Positions 14,833 to 56,075 of a DNA stretch of 64,000 nucleotides are shown here, piece after piece. The DNA is from an uncultured Mycoplasmatota bacterium (GTDB lineage: Bacteria > Bacillota_I > Bacilli_A > RF39 > UBA660). Each line of letters begins with the position of its first letter. Positions within the stretch are counted from its first letter, which is position 1. A program made the position numbers and the translations under genes. Under the pieces are notes generated by a model. It searched no databases. It saw nothing but the letters and a program-made list of their open reading frames with translations, and was not told the origin of the DNA. The stretch lies in assembly GCA_946402735.1 (NCBI GenBank), contig CAMIXH010000003.1, positions 1 to 64,000 of the forward strand. Reading direction: 5' to 3'.

Positions 14833-15040
14833 AAAATAAAAACTTTATTACTTAAGGATGAGCTATTGCCACGGTACCACCTTAATTCATAAAGTCTTAT
14901 GCATCTTTAATATTGTTAACGCCAATATACGACTATTTCTAAAAAAGCAAGTTCAATTAAACAACTTTGTTAATTTTCACCAACCATTAACTCTCTTAAA
15001 AAGTATTATTAATTTACTACTCTTTTCCTCTTCGAAATAT
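14833..15040 (-). promoter_or_regulatory. T-box leader (tRNA-Leu responsive) for the leuS operon
   Basis: Stem I elements are present: AAGAGGAAAAGAGTA near the 5' end and AGAGAGTTAATGGTTGGTG for the distal part. The specifier follows GAA: CTT at 14949-14951, a Leu codon that matches the leuS operon. The T-box core AAGGTGGTACCGTGGC lies at about 14867-14882. The terminator stem uses ACTTTAT and TTAAGG (14880-14895) against CCTTAA and ATAAAGT (14842-14857), followed by TTTTTATTTT; the T-box core sits in its loop. Uncharged tRNA-Leu should favour the antiterminator. Confidence 0.93.
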
Positions 15041-21684: not shown

Positions 21685-22980
21685 TTACATTTTCATATTC
21701 TTCATTTGTTTCATCATTTTCTTCATGTCTTCAAATTGGTTTAGTAATCTGTTAACATCTTCAACTCTTTGACCACATCCAGCAGCTATTCTTTGTTTAC
21801 GACTAGCTTTAATAATATCTGGATTTCTTCTCTCTTCTGGTGTCATTGATAAAACAATTGCTTCTACCCTAGCCATCATTTTAGGATCAATATTAACATT
21901 ATTAAGTCCCATCTTTGATGCTCCTGGGATTAATTTAATTAGGTTTTCAAGTGGACCTAATTTTTTTATTTGTTTCATAGAAGTTAAGAAATCATCAAGA
22001 TCAAATTTACCTTTTTGCATCTTCTTAGTAACACTCATCATTTCATCTTGATCTAGTTCTGCTTCTGTTTTTTCTATGATAGAAAGTAAATCTCCCATAC
22101 CAAGTATTCTATTAGCTATTCTTTCAGGATAAAATTCACTTATTCCATCTAACTTTTCAGAGTCTCCAATTAATTTAATTGGAATATTTGTTAAATGTCT
22201 TAATGATAAAGCTACTCCACCTTTAGTATCTCCATCCATTTTAGTTAGAACACAACCAGTAAGATTTAATTTATCATTAAATCCAGTAATTACATTAATT
22301 GCATCTTGTCCCATCATAGCATCAATAACAAGTAATTCTTCGTGTGGCTTAGTAGCTGCTTCTATATTAACAAGCTCTTGCATTAATTCTTCATCTATTT
22401 GAAGACGTCCTGCTGTATCTATTAAGATATAATCATATCCTTTACTCTTAGCATATTCTATACCATTCTTAGCTATTTCAACTGGATTACCTTTTCCTTC
22501 ATCATATACTTCAATATTTAATTGTTTTCCAATACTCTTTAATTGATCAATAGCTGCTGGTCTATAAACATCACAAGCAATAAACATTGGTTTTTTATGA
22601 TGTTTCTTTCTAACCATATTACCTATTTTTCCAATAGATGTAGTTTTTCCACCACCTTGAAGACCAACTATCATAACTATTGTTGGATTTTTACTAACTT
22701 CTAAAGGTGCTGAATCTCCACCTAATAAATCAACTAATTCATCTTTTAGTATTTTTACAAACATATCACCTGGTTTAATAGATTTTCTTACCTCTTCACC
22801 AAGCGCTTTTTCTTTTACTCTATCTATAAATTCTTTTACTATTTTAACATTTACATCGGCTTCAAGAAGACATAGTCTTATTTCACGAACTATATCACTA
22901 ATATTATCTTCATTAATGACACCTCTTGATTTAATGTTACTAACAGCACGTTGTAATCTCTCACTTAAGTTTTCAAACAT
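21685..22980 (-). CDS. ffh: Signal recognition particle GTPase
   Basis: 431 residues from the ATG at 22980. The GTG at 22989 lies inside the AGGTGAT ribosome binding site and is not the start. NG domain: GLQGGGKTT (P-loop), DTAGRLQ and TKMDGDTKGG. The Met-rich M domain (about 300-431) binds SRP RNA and signal peptides and ends KMMKQMKNMKM. It targets nascent membrane proteins with FtsY (45936-46982). No SRP RNA gene was found in the window. Confidence 0.96.
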   Translation of the reverse strand: MFENLSERLQRAVSNIKSRGVINEDNISDIVREIRLCLLEADVNVKIVKEFIDRVKEKALGEEVRKSIKPGDMFVKILKDELVDLLGGDSAPLEVSKNPTIVMIVGLQGGGKTTSIGKIGNMVRKKHHKKPMFIACDVYRPAAIDQLKSIGKQLNIEVYDEGKGNPVEIAKNGIEYAKSKGYDYILIDTAGRLQIDEELMQELVNIEAATKPHEELLVIDAMMGQDAINVITGFNDKLNLTGCVLTKMDGDTKGGVALSLRHLTNIPIKLIGDSEKLDGISEFYPERIANRILGMGDLLSIIEKTEAELDQDEMMSVTKKMQKGKFDLDDFLTSMKQIKKLGPLENLIKLIPGASKMGLNNVNIDPKMMARVEAIVLSMTPEERRNPDIIKASRKQRIAAGCGQRVEDVNRLLNQFEDMKKMMKQMKNMKM

Positions 22981-22998
22981 ATTAATCACCTATAATGT

Positions 22999-23105: not shown

Positions 23106-23134
23106 TTGATTTACTATTTATATTCCCTTATCAT
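23106..23134 (+). promoter_or_regulatory. Promoter of the 27-residue peptide mRNA
   Basis: TTGATT (23106-23111), a 17-bp spacer, then TATCAT (23129-23134). The predicted start is near 23141, at the first base of the inverted repeat. Confidence 0.6.
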
Positions 23135-23188
23135 TTAATAGAACAAATAGCTGTTAGGCTTTCCTCTTTTTTTCATAAGGAGGTGAGT

Positions 23189-23272
23189 ATGACTAAAAAA
23201 GATTTATTGATACTAGCTTTGCTTATTATCATATACTTCCTTTTAATCACTCTTCTTGTAGTTTTACTATAA
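23189..23272 (+). CDS. 27-residue hydrophobic peptide, candidate type I toxin
   Basis: The sequence starts MTKKDLLILALLIIIY and ends in a run of Leu, Val, Ile and Thr, so it is a single membrane helix with two N-terminal Lys. AAGGAGGTGAGT, a near-perfect ribosome binding site, precedes the ATG. Own promoter upstream. A convergent minus-strand RNA covers the whole 3' UTR just after the stop. Size, hydrophobicity and antisense layout fit type I toxins such as the BsrG or Fst groups, but I see no clear sequence match. It could instead be an unrelated small membrane peptide. Confidence 0.65.
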   Translation: MTKKDLLILALLIIIYFLLITLLVVLL

Positions 23273-23344
23273 GAAAAAACCTAACTAAAAGTTAGGTATC
23301 CAAACTAGAGGTTGGCCTAAATACTAAGGCTATTTGTTCCCTCT
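23270..23344 (-). ncRNA. Candidate antisense RNA (antitoxin) to the peptide mRNA
   Basis: Bounded by a strong promoter (23351-23379) and a perfect terminator (23279-23297, then TTTTTTC), giving about 75 nt. It is fully complementary to the 3' UTR of the 27-residue ORF and begins right after the ORF stop. Foldable parts are GCCT/AGGC (loop TAGTATTT), CCAA/TTGG and the terminator hairpin. Its 5' part GAACAAATAGC is identical to the 5' end of the opposite mRNA. Confidence 0.65.
23279..23297 (-). terminator. Terminator of the antisense RNA
   Basis: Eight-base-pair stem ACCTAACT/AGTTAGGT with a 3-base loop, then TTTTTTCTT on the minus strand. The plus strand has no T run here, so the peptide mRNA should read through. 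Confidence 0.85.
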
Positions 23345-23350
23345 AAATAC

Positions 23351-23379
23351 ATATTATCATTATTCTGAATAATTGTAAA
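23351..23379 (-). promoter_or_regulatory. Promoter of the antisense RNA
   Basis: TTTACA (23374-23379), a 17-bp spacer, then TAATAT (23351-23356) with TGA in front (extended -10). Confidence 0.75.
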
Positions 23380-23382
23380 CAA

Positions 23383-23411
23383 TAAAAAAGGAAATGAATA
23401 ATCATTTCCTT
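23383..23411. terminator. Bidirectional terminator: rpoC (minus) and peptide mRNA (plus)
   Basis: Ten-base-pair stem AAGGAAATGA/TCATTTCCTT. The minus side ends in TTTTTTATT, the plus side in ATTTTTATT. Confidence 0.8.
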
Positions 23412-23418
23412 ATTTTTA

Positions 23419-26400
23419 TTATTCAGCTTGAGAAGCTACTACTTCTTCATTCTTATCATCTGTTAAGAATTTTTCTTCTAGTACTTCTGCAGCATCATCA
23501 TCAAGTAGTTCATTTTTAAGCATTACTTCAATATTGTTATATTGTTTTGCTCCAGTACCTGCTGGGATTAATTTACCAAGAATAACATTTTCTTTTAAAC
23601 CATTTAACATATCTACTTTACCACGTGTAGCAGCATCTGTTAAGATTCTTGTTGTTTCTTGGAATGAAGCAGCAGATAAGAATGAATCTGTTTCTAGAGA
23701 TGCTTTAGTGATACCAAGCATTACTGGTTTACCAGTAGCAGGAACACCACCACTTAAGATTACTGGTTTGTTAATATCAGCAAATTCTCTTAGAGGTACG
23801 CTAAGTCCTTCGATTAAGTTAGTATCTCCTGGATCAATTACTTTAACTTTAGTAATCATTCTCTTAATTACAGTTTCAATATGTTTATCTGAAACATCAA
23901 CACCTTGAGATTTATATACTTTTTGAACTTCTTTTAATATATATTCTTGAACTGTTGTTGGGTCTGTTACAGCAAGTAACTCTTTTGGACTAATACTTCC
24001 TTCAGTTAAAGCATGACCAGCTTCAATAATGTCGCCTTTTTCAACTTTTAACTTAGCATTATATTGAGTTATATGTTCACGAGTCTCAATATCGTTAGTA
24101 ATATATATTTTAAATCTACCATTCTTATCATCAGAAATCTTAGTAATTTTACCACCAATTTCAGCGATAGTAGCTTTTGCTTTTGGTATTCTTGCTTCAA
24201 ATAGCTCTTCAACTCTTGGAAGACCTTGAGTGATATCAGCTGCTGATGCAACACCACCTGTGTGGAATGTACGCATTGTTAATTGTGTACCTGGCTCACC
24301 GATTGATTGAGCAGCCATAATACCAGTTGCTTCACCTACTTCAACAACATTTCCTGTTGCTAAGTTAAGTCCATAACATTTTTGACAAATTCCATTTGCA
24401 CATCTACATGTTAGAACACTTCTGATTTCCATCTTAGTGATTCCAGCACCAACAATCTTATCAGCAATCTTTTCAGTAATTAGAGCACCCTTATCAACTA
24501 AAACTTCTTTAGTTTCTGGATGTAATATTTTTTGATTAGAATATCTACCTAGAATTCTATCTCTGAATGATTCAATTACAGCACCACTATTTTCATCTGT
24601 GAATGCTTCAACTTCTAATCCTTGGATTGTTCCACAATCTTCTTCTTTAACAATTATATCTTGTACTACATCAACTAAACGTCTTGTTAAGTATCCAGCA
24701 TCAGCTGTCTTTAAGGCAGTATCGGCTGTACCTTTTCTAGAACCGTGTGTTGATAAGAAGAATTCTTGAACGTCTAATCCTTCACGGAATGAAGCTAAGA
24801 TTGGAATTTCTACTTGACCACCATCTGGTTTAGCCATAATACCACGCATACCAGCAAGTTGTCCTAATTGGTTAGCAGAACCTCTGGCTCCAGAGTTGAT
24901 AATCATTGATAATGGATTTTCAACATCAGCTTTTAGAATATCTCCTAATTTTCCTTGAACATTATTTGTTGCATCTGTCCATAACTTAATAACTTTGTTA
25001 TGTCTTTCTTCATCAGTTATAAGACCACGTTTAAATTGTTTATTAATTTTTTCAATAGCTTCATTTGTTTCATTTATAATAGTATCTTTTTCATGATTGA
25101 TTGGAATGTCTGATAGTGAAATTGTAATACCAGACTTAGTACTATATTTAAATCCTTGGTCTTTTAATTTATCTAAGAAAATTGAAGTTTCTGTAGTTTT
25201 ATATCTCTTAAATATTTGAGTAATTATTTTTCCTAAATCCTTTTTAATTAAAGCAGGAATTAGTGGCATTTTAGCAACTTCTTCAGGTAAATTCTTACCC
25301 TTTTCAATAAAGAACTTATCTGGAGTCATTAACTCAATATTTTCTTTACTTCCTTCACAAATATAAGGATATGTATCTGGGAAAATTTCATTAAATATGA
25401 TTTTTCCAGCAGTAGTTACTAAATACTTTTCTTTTTGTTCATCAGTCCATATTTTATGTCTGAATGCTTTAGCAGGAATACAAATTCTTGTATGAAGAGT
25501 TATTTCTCTTCTTTCATAAGCCATTAATGCTTCATTAGCATCTTTATAAGCTTTACCTTCATTAGGTTCACCTGCTAATTCAAGTGTTAAATAATAGTTT
25601 CCTAAAACCATATCTTGAGATGGTGTAACGATTGGTTTTCCATCTTTTGGATCTAGGATATTATTAGCACCTAACATAAGTAGTCTAGCTTCAGCTTGAG
25701 CTTCTTCACTAATTGGAATATGGATAGCCATTTGGTCACCATCGAAGTCAGCGTTGAATCCACCACAAACTAATGGGTGAAGTCTTAAAGCTTTTCCACT
25801 TACTAAAACTGGTTCGAATGCTTGAATAGATAGTCTGTGTAGTGTTGGAGCACGGTTTAACATAACTGGATGCTCACGAATAACATCCTCTACTACATCC
25901 CATACTCTTTCATCTTGTACATCTATTATCTTCTTAGCAGCTTTAATATTATGTGCTATACCTCTTTCAACTAATTGTTGCATTACATATGGCTTAAATA
26001 ACTCTAAAGCCATTTCTTTTGGTACACCACATTGATACATCTTTAGACTTGGTCCTACAGCGATAACGCTACGTCCAGAGTAATCAACTCTTTTACCAAG
26101 TAGGTTTTGTCTAAATCTACCTTGTTTACCTTTTAACATTGAAGATAGTGATTTTAATGGTCTATTACCTACACCAGATACACTTCTTCCACGTCTACCA
26201 TTATCAATTAGAGCATCTACTGCTTCTTGAAGCATACGTTTTTCATTTTGAACAATGATTGTTGGTGCTTCTAATTCTAATAATTTTTTAAGACGATTAT
26301 TTCTGTTAATAATTCTTCTATATAAATCATTTAAGTCACTTGTAGCAAATCTTCCACCTGGAAGTTGAATCATAGGTCTTAGATCTGGTGGAATTACTGG

Positions 26401-27093
26401 AAGTACATCTAGTATCATCCATTCAGGTCTATTTCCACTTTCTAGGAATGAATTTAAGCAATCAAGTCTCTTGATTAATCTTAATTTCTTTTGTCCTTGT
26501 GATTTTTCAACTTCTTTCTTAAGTGCAGCAACTTCCTTTTCTAAATTAACTTCTGTTAATAATTCTTTGATAGCTTCAGCACCCATTCCAACTCTAAATC
26601 CATCACCATATTTTTCATAATATGCTCTGTATTCTTTGTCAGATAAAGTTTGCTTTTTAGTTAAAGGAGCAATTCCTGGATCTAATACTATATAACTTAC
26701 AAAATATAATACTTCTTCTAATTCACGAGGTGAAATATCAAGAACTAGACCCATTTTTGGAGGTACACCTTTAGCATACCAAATGTGGCTAACTGGACAA
26801 GCTAGTTCAATATGTCCCATTCTTTCACGTCTAACTTTAGCACGTGTTACTTCTACACCACATCTATCACAAATAACATTTTTATATCTTAATCTTTTGT
26901 ACTTTTTACAAGCACATTCAAAGTCTTTTGTTGGTCCGAAAATCTTTTCACAGAAAAGTCCATCTCTCTCAGGGCTAAGTGTTCTATAGTTAATTGTTTC
27001 AGGTTTCTTTACTTCTCCATAAGACCATTCACGGATTTTTTCAGGAGATGCAATTCCTATACGAATTCCTTCAAATTCATTAACTTCGTTCAT
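23419..27093 (-). CDS. rpoC: RNA polymerase beta' subunit
   Basis: 1224 residues. Zinc finger [24 protein letters not shown] near 60-83, catalytic NADFDGDQM (about 447-455), trigger-loop region [29 protein letters not shown], and second zinc site [13 protein letters not shown]. No large insertions. Its ATG shares one base with the rpoB stop (TAATG), so the two large subunits are coupled. Confidence 0.98.
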
Positions 27094-32387: not shown

Positions 32388-32401
32388 ACGAGTCTCCTTT
32401 C

Positions 32402-32511
32402 TTTTAATTAAAAAGTTTCCTCTAGACAAGGAAACCTATTATAATCGTCATTATACATTTGTTTCCTCGGTAAGATTTATTTGTGCACTTACTGTCTTTG
32501 GTCACTTCACG
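32402..32511 (-). promoter_or_regulatory. L10 ribosomal-protein leader with attenuator
   Basis: The untranslated RNA contains AGACAGTAAGTG then TCTTACCGAGG, the core of the L10 leader bound by the L10-L12 complex. A terminator stem GTTTCC/GGAAAC (32430-32435 and 32415-32420) followed by TTTTT lies at its end. GAGGAAAC further upstream can pair with GTTTCC as the alternative fold. Bound L10 should lower rplJ-rplL expression. Confidence 0.82.
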
Positions 32512-32517
32512 AACTTG

Positions 32518-32546
32518 ATTATACAATAATTAAGTTCATTTGTAAA
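32518..32546 (-). promoter_or_regulatory. Promoter of rplJ-rplL
   Basis: TTTACA (32541-32546), a 17-bp spacer, then TATAAT (32518-32523). Confidence 0.85.
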
Positions 32547-55731: not shown

Positions 55732-56075
55732 ATTCTTAATAAGCCATGTTCTGTACCTAAAAGGTGACAAACATTTATCTAAGGATTTCTCCTTCCCTCA
55801 ATCATTTCTTTATTCACTCTTGAGAGTTCCCCTACCAAATTTGGGTTTCTCACTCGTGGGGTTTACCTCGTTCCACCATCATTATTCCTAATGACAATCG
55901 TCTCTATGGCACTTTTATACCTACTATAATCAGGTCTTGATTACCTCGGAGCCGTTAATACTTACGTATTACCTAGGGTTATTTTTTCCCCTAGCACGAA
56001 CACTTTCAAACATCACAGTTTGAGTGAGCATGGACTTTCCTCTACATATAAATATGCAGCGTTTGTCTAAAGAAT
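55732..56075 (-). ncRNA. rnpB: RNase P RNA, class B
   Basis: Contains the conserved GAGGAAAGTCCATGCTC near the 5' part, AGGGGAAAAAATAACCC, GGTAATACG, GGTGGAACGAGGTAAACCCC and the 3' ACAGAACATGGCTTA segment. ATTCTT (5' end, near 56075) pairs with AAGAAT (55732-55737) as P1. It processes tRNA 5' ends with RnpA. Adjacent to gpsB as in B. subtilis. No terminator is seen before the RodZ-like gene, whose ribosome binding site begins about 12 bp later. Confidence 0.96.

Follow-up and report, generated by a model that had tools for sequence, protein, structure and literature searches.

Two predicted convergent genes in the ffh-rpoC gap

We analysed a window of 64,000 nucleotides (the whole stretch of DNA to which all positions without a locus handle refer) from an uncultured gut bacterium, in which the intergenic gap between ffh (21685-22989, minus strand) and rpoC (23419-27093, minus strand) holds a tiny ORF and, on the opposite strand, a predicted RNA gene. 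The ORF (23189-23272, plus strand) translates to MTKKDLLILALLIIIYFLLITLLVVLL (27 aa), a hydrophobic peptide that we treat as a putative toxin of an MxKKDFLI family, and its ten-base Shine-Dalgarno (SD) sequence AAGGAGGTGA (23177-23186, plus strand) ends 2 nt 5' of the ATG. An earlier note on this DNA had described just such a 27-residue hydrophobic ORF with a strong ribosome binding site, and had given it a promoter of its own, which we place at TTGATT-17-TATCAT (23106-23134, plus strand). The match is 9/12 only, and promoter matches in this AT-rich interval occur no more often than in shuffles (5 found, 6.9 expected), so the upstream promoter alone would mean little. Its spacing to a helix in the mRNA (P1, below) is nevertheless kept in relatives: the best -10 element ends 6-7 nt before the start of P1 in 70 of 108 copies (~5 expected) and 6 nt before it in the window, with the mRNA start predicted at ~23140-23141.

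On the minus strand, an extended -10 promoter, TTTACA-17-TGA-TAATAT (23379-23351), precedes a predicted antisense RNA of ~75 nt (23345-23271, minus strand; +1 near 23345), the putative antitoxin. Its terminator is hairpin H1 with its T run (23297-23279, minus strand), just past the toxin stop codon; the predicted RNA is fully complementary to the toxin 3' UTR and ends at the stop codon. The elements of the convergent RNA proposed in the earlier note are present. A bidirectional terminator-like hairpin (23388-23411, both strands) would end the toxin mRNA on the plus strand and rpoC on the minus strand. The earlier note had given both transcripts usable terminators; terminator-like sites exceed chance in the interval (5 found, 0.3 expected in shuffles). 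No Rfam model matched within 23106-23411; elsewhere the minus strand of the window carries a T-box leader (14851-15033), an L10 ribosomal leader (32400-32519) and a class B RNase P RNA (55735-56074).

Conservation and distribution of the peptide

Fourteen peptides of the family gave the consensus MxKKDxLIxSLIIIIxLLIxLLFVVLI, with M1, K3, K4, L7, L11 and I15 invariant. The arrangement of K3 K4 D5 followed by ~22 mostly hydrophobic residues is conserved in relatives and, from composition, we infer a single-span membrane peptide. At 27 aa it fits the general type I pattern of a small hydrophobic membrane peptide of <60 aa, but its charges are N-terminal and it lacks the charged tail that type I toxins usually have at the C-terminus, which counts against a toxin. 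Among 82 distinct 27-aa ORFs from relatives, pN/pS was ~0.32 and the second codon position was the least variable, which indicates that the peptide is constrained and very probably translated. None of the 14 members had a significant match in Pfam, NCBIfam or PHROGs, in keeping with the earlier impression that the peptide belongs to no recognised family.

When 60 relatives were searched at the DNA level, several members of the genus proved to carry the locus, tandem copies included. Of 386 genomes sampled from the taxonomic family, 219 matched a profile of the 14 peptides, often more than once. All positive genomes in the wider samples (22 in a class-wide sample; 160 of 288 in an order-wide sample, with up to 14 copies per genome) belong to that family, and no sampled relative outside it, class- or order-wide, had the peptide. 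Named matches are uncultured Bacilli, many from animal guts, such as Candidatus Onthousia. A DNA pattern run on genome contigs also gave homologues with this layout. The full set of parts (toxin promoter, SD, constrained ORF, minus-strand terminator past the stop and convergent extended -10 promoter) recurs in 156 copies. The earlier note had held that its reading would fail if ORF start, ribosome binding site and stop were not conserved in relatives; >150 copies keep the ORF with its SD and stop, together with the hairpin and the two promoters. With peptide and RNA folds retained by hundreds of copies in related bacteria, the sequences point to a large family of toxin-antitoxin modules that has gone unrecognised.

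Viral contigs contained no copies by pattern or by alignment, and tblastn against phages and plasmids returned nothing, a search that its low-complexity filter may blind to such a peptide. Neighbours of the examined loci are mostly housekeeping genes (a class I tRNA synthetase, tsaD, ddl, scpB, rpiB). With no link of the copies to plasmids or phages, the classic role in plasmid maintenance does not apply. The ffh-rpoC site itself is variable within the genus: three genomes carry the module there (the window's, G005 and G007), and it is empty in two. One same-genus copy at this site has lost promoter, leader, SD and start and keeps the antisense part. At the same site, a genome of this genus (G003; L199 2197-2737) has, in place of the module, two genes whose products resemble a RelB/DinJ antitoxin and a RelE/YafQ toxin, as judged by eye without a family search.

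The peptide was not the same at every locus. A second type, MKKRxFVIKxLRxIxIILFLLIMMIVVIKK (~30 aa), replaces the KKD peptide in the same RNA chassis at four loci (antisense coordinates L302 1036-1118, L319 519-602, L309 149-230 and L296 499-577). At a further locus (L235, beside antisense 1501-1579), one base is lost from a conserved TTTTTT run in the K-K-D-F codons and the peptide is truncated after KKDF; this homopolymer could allow phase variation of the peptide.

RNA structures on the two strands

The mRNA leader (23141-23159, plus strand; GAACAAATAGC outer, TTAGGC inner) is an inverted repeat of a segment of the distal 3' UTR (23316-23339, plus strand; inner GCCTAA, a ~7-nt asymmetric loop, outer GCTATTTGTTC), and the 5' end of the mRNA pairs with its own 3' UTR in a helix of 20 bp, P1, under strong covariation. 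The window mRNA folds at -74.6 kcal/mol (shuffles, -43.9 +/- 4.2; z -7.2), with pair probabilities of 0.99-1.0 in the outer helix. In 156 copies chosen by ORF and SD only, without selection for the helix, P1 was better than in all 20 dinucleotide shuffles in 146 (control region, 5/152). In a set of 60 sequences, 97.4% of alignment cells were paired (35-42% with a slid partner; 0/500 shuffles), with double-sided changes at 22 of 28 pairs. Presence of the helix was part of the choice of that set, and the percentage paired is inflated accordingly; the shuffle test on the 156 copies is free of this bias.

Part of the leader (23154-23159) can alternatively pair with the plus-strand 5' arm of H1, an interaction kept in 98.5% (30-47% when slid). 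Because this leader box pairs equally well with H1, the mRNA is predicted to have two mutually exclusive conformations, both conserved. Most of the SD is base-paired in the predicted mRNA, where it faces an anti-SD element in the leader (CCTCT, 23163-23167, plus strand) through clamp pairs kept in 91.7% of cells; it is clamped locally in every predicted form. Neither this alternative pairing nor the pairing of the mRNA 5' end with the 3' UTR was in the earlier note, which also lacked the antisense genes with lost or broken toxins described below.

A promoter score that ~5% of shuffles (4.8%) reach was attained by the antisense promoter in 20 of 23 copies belonging to the window's class and in 69 of 86 belonging to the other class. 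Its extended -10 element sits at a fixed place in relatives, and the promoter sequence is conserved in copies of the window's class. In most copies outside the window's clade (class 2; for example L050, L057 and L065) the antisense promoter lies ~33-37 nt further upstream, the upstream region has a small hairpin, CAAG-GAAA-CTTG or GAAG-GAAA-CTTC, whose two arms both vary, and P1 is immediately followed by a T run, a probable mRNA terminator.

We examined the hairpin past the stop with a strict and orientation-aware terminator test. An A run was found 5' of it in 96% of the 53 copies with a strict hairpin and a T run 3' of it in none, and the hairpin therefore terminates the minus strand only. 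Wobble pairs, counted with strict gap costs on a non-redundant set, point the same way: P1 has 278 plus-strand G-U against 98 A-C, H1 has 51 minus-strand against 13 plus-strand wobbles, and a hairpin at the 5' end of the antisense RNA has 155 against 17. These opposed biases imply that each structure is selected as RNA of the expected strand, plus for P1 and minus for H1 and the antisense 5' hairpin. The p-values are optimistic because of shared ancestry, but opposite directions of bias are hard to obtain from base composition alone. The general type I requirement of an antisense RNA gene that overlaps the toxin mRNA is thus met by promoter, terminator and minus-strand wobble, with transcription itself not observed. 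The predicted duplex of antisense RNA and mRNA spans ~70 bp at -131 kcal/mol.

Toxin loss, related systems and interpretation

We searched 116 genomes with a covariance model of the antisense RNA. About 26 of the 97 antisense loci examined (~27%, borderline cases by eye) had no intact toxin: 5' halves were deleted, frames shifted, start codons lost, or nothing was left. Conversely, 0 of 156 intact toxins lacked the antisense layout (142 by profile score, 14 divergent ones by inspection). The asymmetry has p 0.0003 with a strict count on both sides and is far more significant with the inspected count. Retention of the antisense gene by intact toxins, with toxins often lost, is what one would expect of a peptide that does harm when the antisense RNA is missing. 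The window's own genome has such an orphan (L252 1501-1574, which is contig 2 of G000, 87352-87425, plus strand; 69 bits), located between two other genes; it has a full match to the antisense model, a terminator and a promoter-like flank, and no toxin ORF or leader.

We regard it as very probable that the locus is a type I toxin-antitoxin module and represents a new family; toxicity, antitoxin action, RNase III cleavage and folding order are inferred. Comparison of sequences alone establishes a constrained peptide family, the two promoters, the two RNA folds, helices that covary and the co-retention of the two genes. It leaves the toxin-antitoxin reading of the earlier note well supported, without any demonstration of expression or toxicity.

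That gap leaves some room for a circuit of the same two RNAs controlling a small membrane protein that is not toxic, for instance a stress-induced regulator of a membrane complex. A conserved peptide under purifying selection, with copies among chromosomal housekeeping genes, would suit such a protein. However, the loss of toxin parts while antisense RNAs persist, with no intact peptide found without antisense, is typical of toxins, as are up to 14 copies per genome including tandem arrays and a second, unrelated peptide in the same RNA chassis. We consider a non-toxic protein improbable on this evidence, without setting it aside. Much less can be said for the idea that only the mRNA fold matters and that the minus-strand promoter and terminator insulate the neighbouring genes, with no antitoxin action: H1 and the 3' strand of P1 do belong to the mRNA too, but selection has acted on H1 and the distal hairpin as RNA of the minus strand, and orphan antisense genes retain hairpins and terminator without any toxin, which makes it very unlikely. 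A miniature mobile element with inverted terminal repeats that merely look like promoters and hairpins, and with an incidental ORF, would account for dispersed and tandem copies with inverted repeats and for a ffh-rpoC site filled in some genomes and empty in others, but is the least credible, since the repeats vary between copies yet co-vary within each, are asymmetric (a 7-nt insertion on one side), adjoin conservation that extends into the promoters, and show a strand-specific excess of G-U over A-C beside a constrained ORF.

For the type I module, the following mechanism is proposed. A plus-strand mRNA of ~275 nt would encode the very hydrophobic 27-aa membrane peptide, the inferred toxin. 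At full length it would fold shut, its 5' leader on its own distal 3' UTR and its SD occluded; while the distal 3' UTR is not yet transcribed, or is occupied, the leader box could pair with H1 instead and act as a switch. The inverted repeats give leader and antisense RNA a common sequence, so the 5' end of the antisense RNA would contend with the leader for a single site in the 3' UTR. The ~7-nt unpaired loop of P1 corresponds to the loop of the antisense 5' hairpin; pairing perhaps starts there, and the long duplex may then be cut by RNase III, as in txpA/RatA. The window's genome encodes RNase III (221.7 bits); its cleavage of this duplex, like toxicity, is inferred by analogy with txpA/RatA and bsrG/SR4 (PMC6562991, PMC7430163).

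In hok/Sok and aapA/IsoA, the antisense RNA acts at the 5' region of the toxin mRNA. The antisense RNA here lies wholly 3' of the ORF, unlike a leader-directed one. The likeness to aapA/IsoA (Helicobacter pylori; PMC6733600) and hok/Sok consists in closure of the full-length mRNA 5' to 3', as found here, and in alternative transient pairings. In those systems 3' trimming opens the SD (PMC6733600). Such exposure was not supported by folding prediction here: mean SD accessibility was 0.20 at full length and 0.21 and 0.18 in truncated mRNAs. As the SD is predicted to stay occluded after truncation, the hok/AapA mode of activation is not reproduced.

The earlier note had likened the layout to BsrG/SR4, and this held in part. 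With bsrG/SR4, bsrE/SR5 and txpA/RatA of Bacillus subtilis (PMC6562991, PMC7430163) the module shares convergent genes, a short hydrophobic peptide, an antisense RNA at the mRNA 3' region, a weakly sequestered SD, available RNase III and different peptides in one RNA chassis. Reviews mention a helix P1 in bsrG mRNA whose 3' part is contacted by SR4 (PMC6562991, PMC7430163). Convergent pairing at the mRNA 3' end is thus as in the BsrG/TxpA family, but homology of the peptide is not: it is unrelated and has no charged C-terminal tail. Moreover, the antisense RNA is ~75 nt and covers the 3' UTR only (163-222 nt in B. subtilis), the antisense target lies in a covarying 5'-3' closure of the hok/AapA kind, and the module is chromosomal and intergenic, not in a prophage. 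The fst RNA I/RNA II pair of Enterococcus faecalis par (PMC4147584) likewise has convergent RNAs and a repeat common to leader and antisense region. In par, direct repeats make leader and antisense RNA complementary and the RNAs share a terminator (PMC4147584), whereas the repeats here are inverted and the terminators separate. Peptide homology, antisense position or repeat orientation thus excludes the module from the BsrG/TxpA, hok/AapA and Fst families, and we place it in a new one that combines a BsrG/SR4-like 3' antisense RNA with a hok/AapA-like 5'-3' closure.

At their length, type I toxins escape standard annotation. The KKD peptide was missing from every protein library tried, although more than half of the genomes sampled from one large, uncultured family of gut Bacilli, with genomes of ~1.5 Mb, carry it. 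The alignment provides covariation-supported paired RNA structures on both strands, and these make it testable how a closed toxin mRNA opens, how an antisense RNA in the 3' UTR acts far from the SD and why orphan antitoxins persist. We suggest, only tentatively, that the antisense RNA imitates the toxin mRNA leader and displaces it from the 3' UTR of the closed mRNA, and that toxin-less antisense genes are retained because their RNAs act in trans as antitoxins, protecting against sister or incoming copies. If that were true, these orphans would together form a network of RNA antitoxins on the chromosomes of a gut lineage with reduced genomes.
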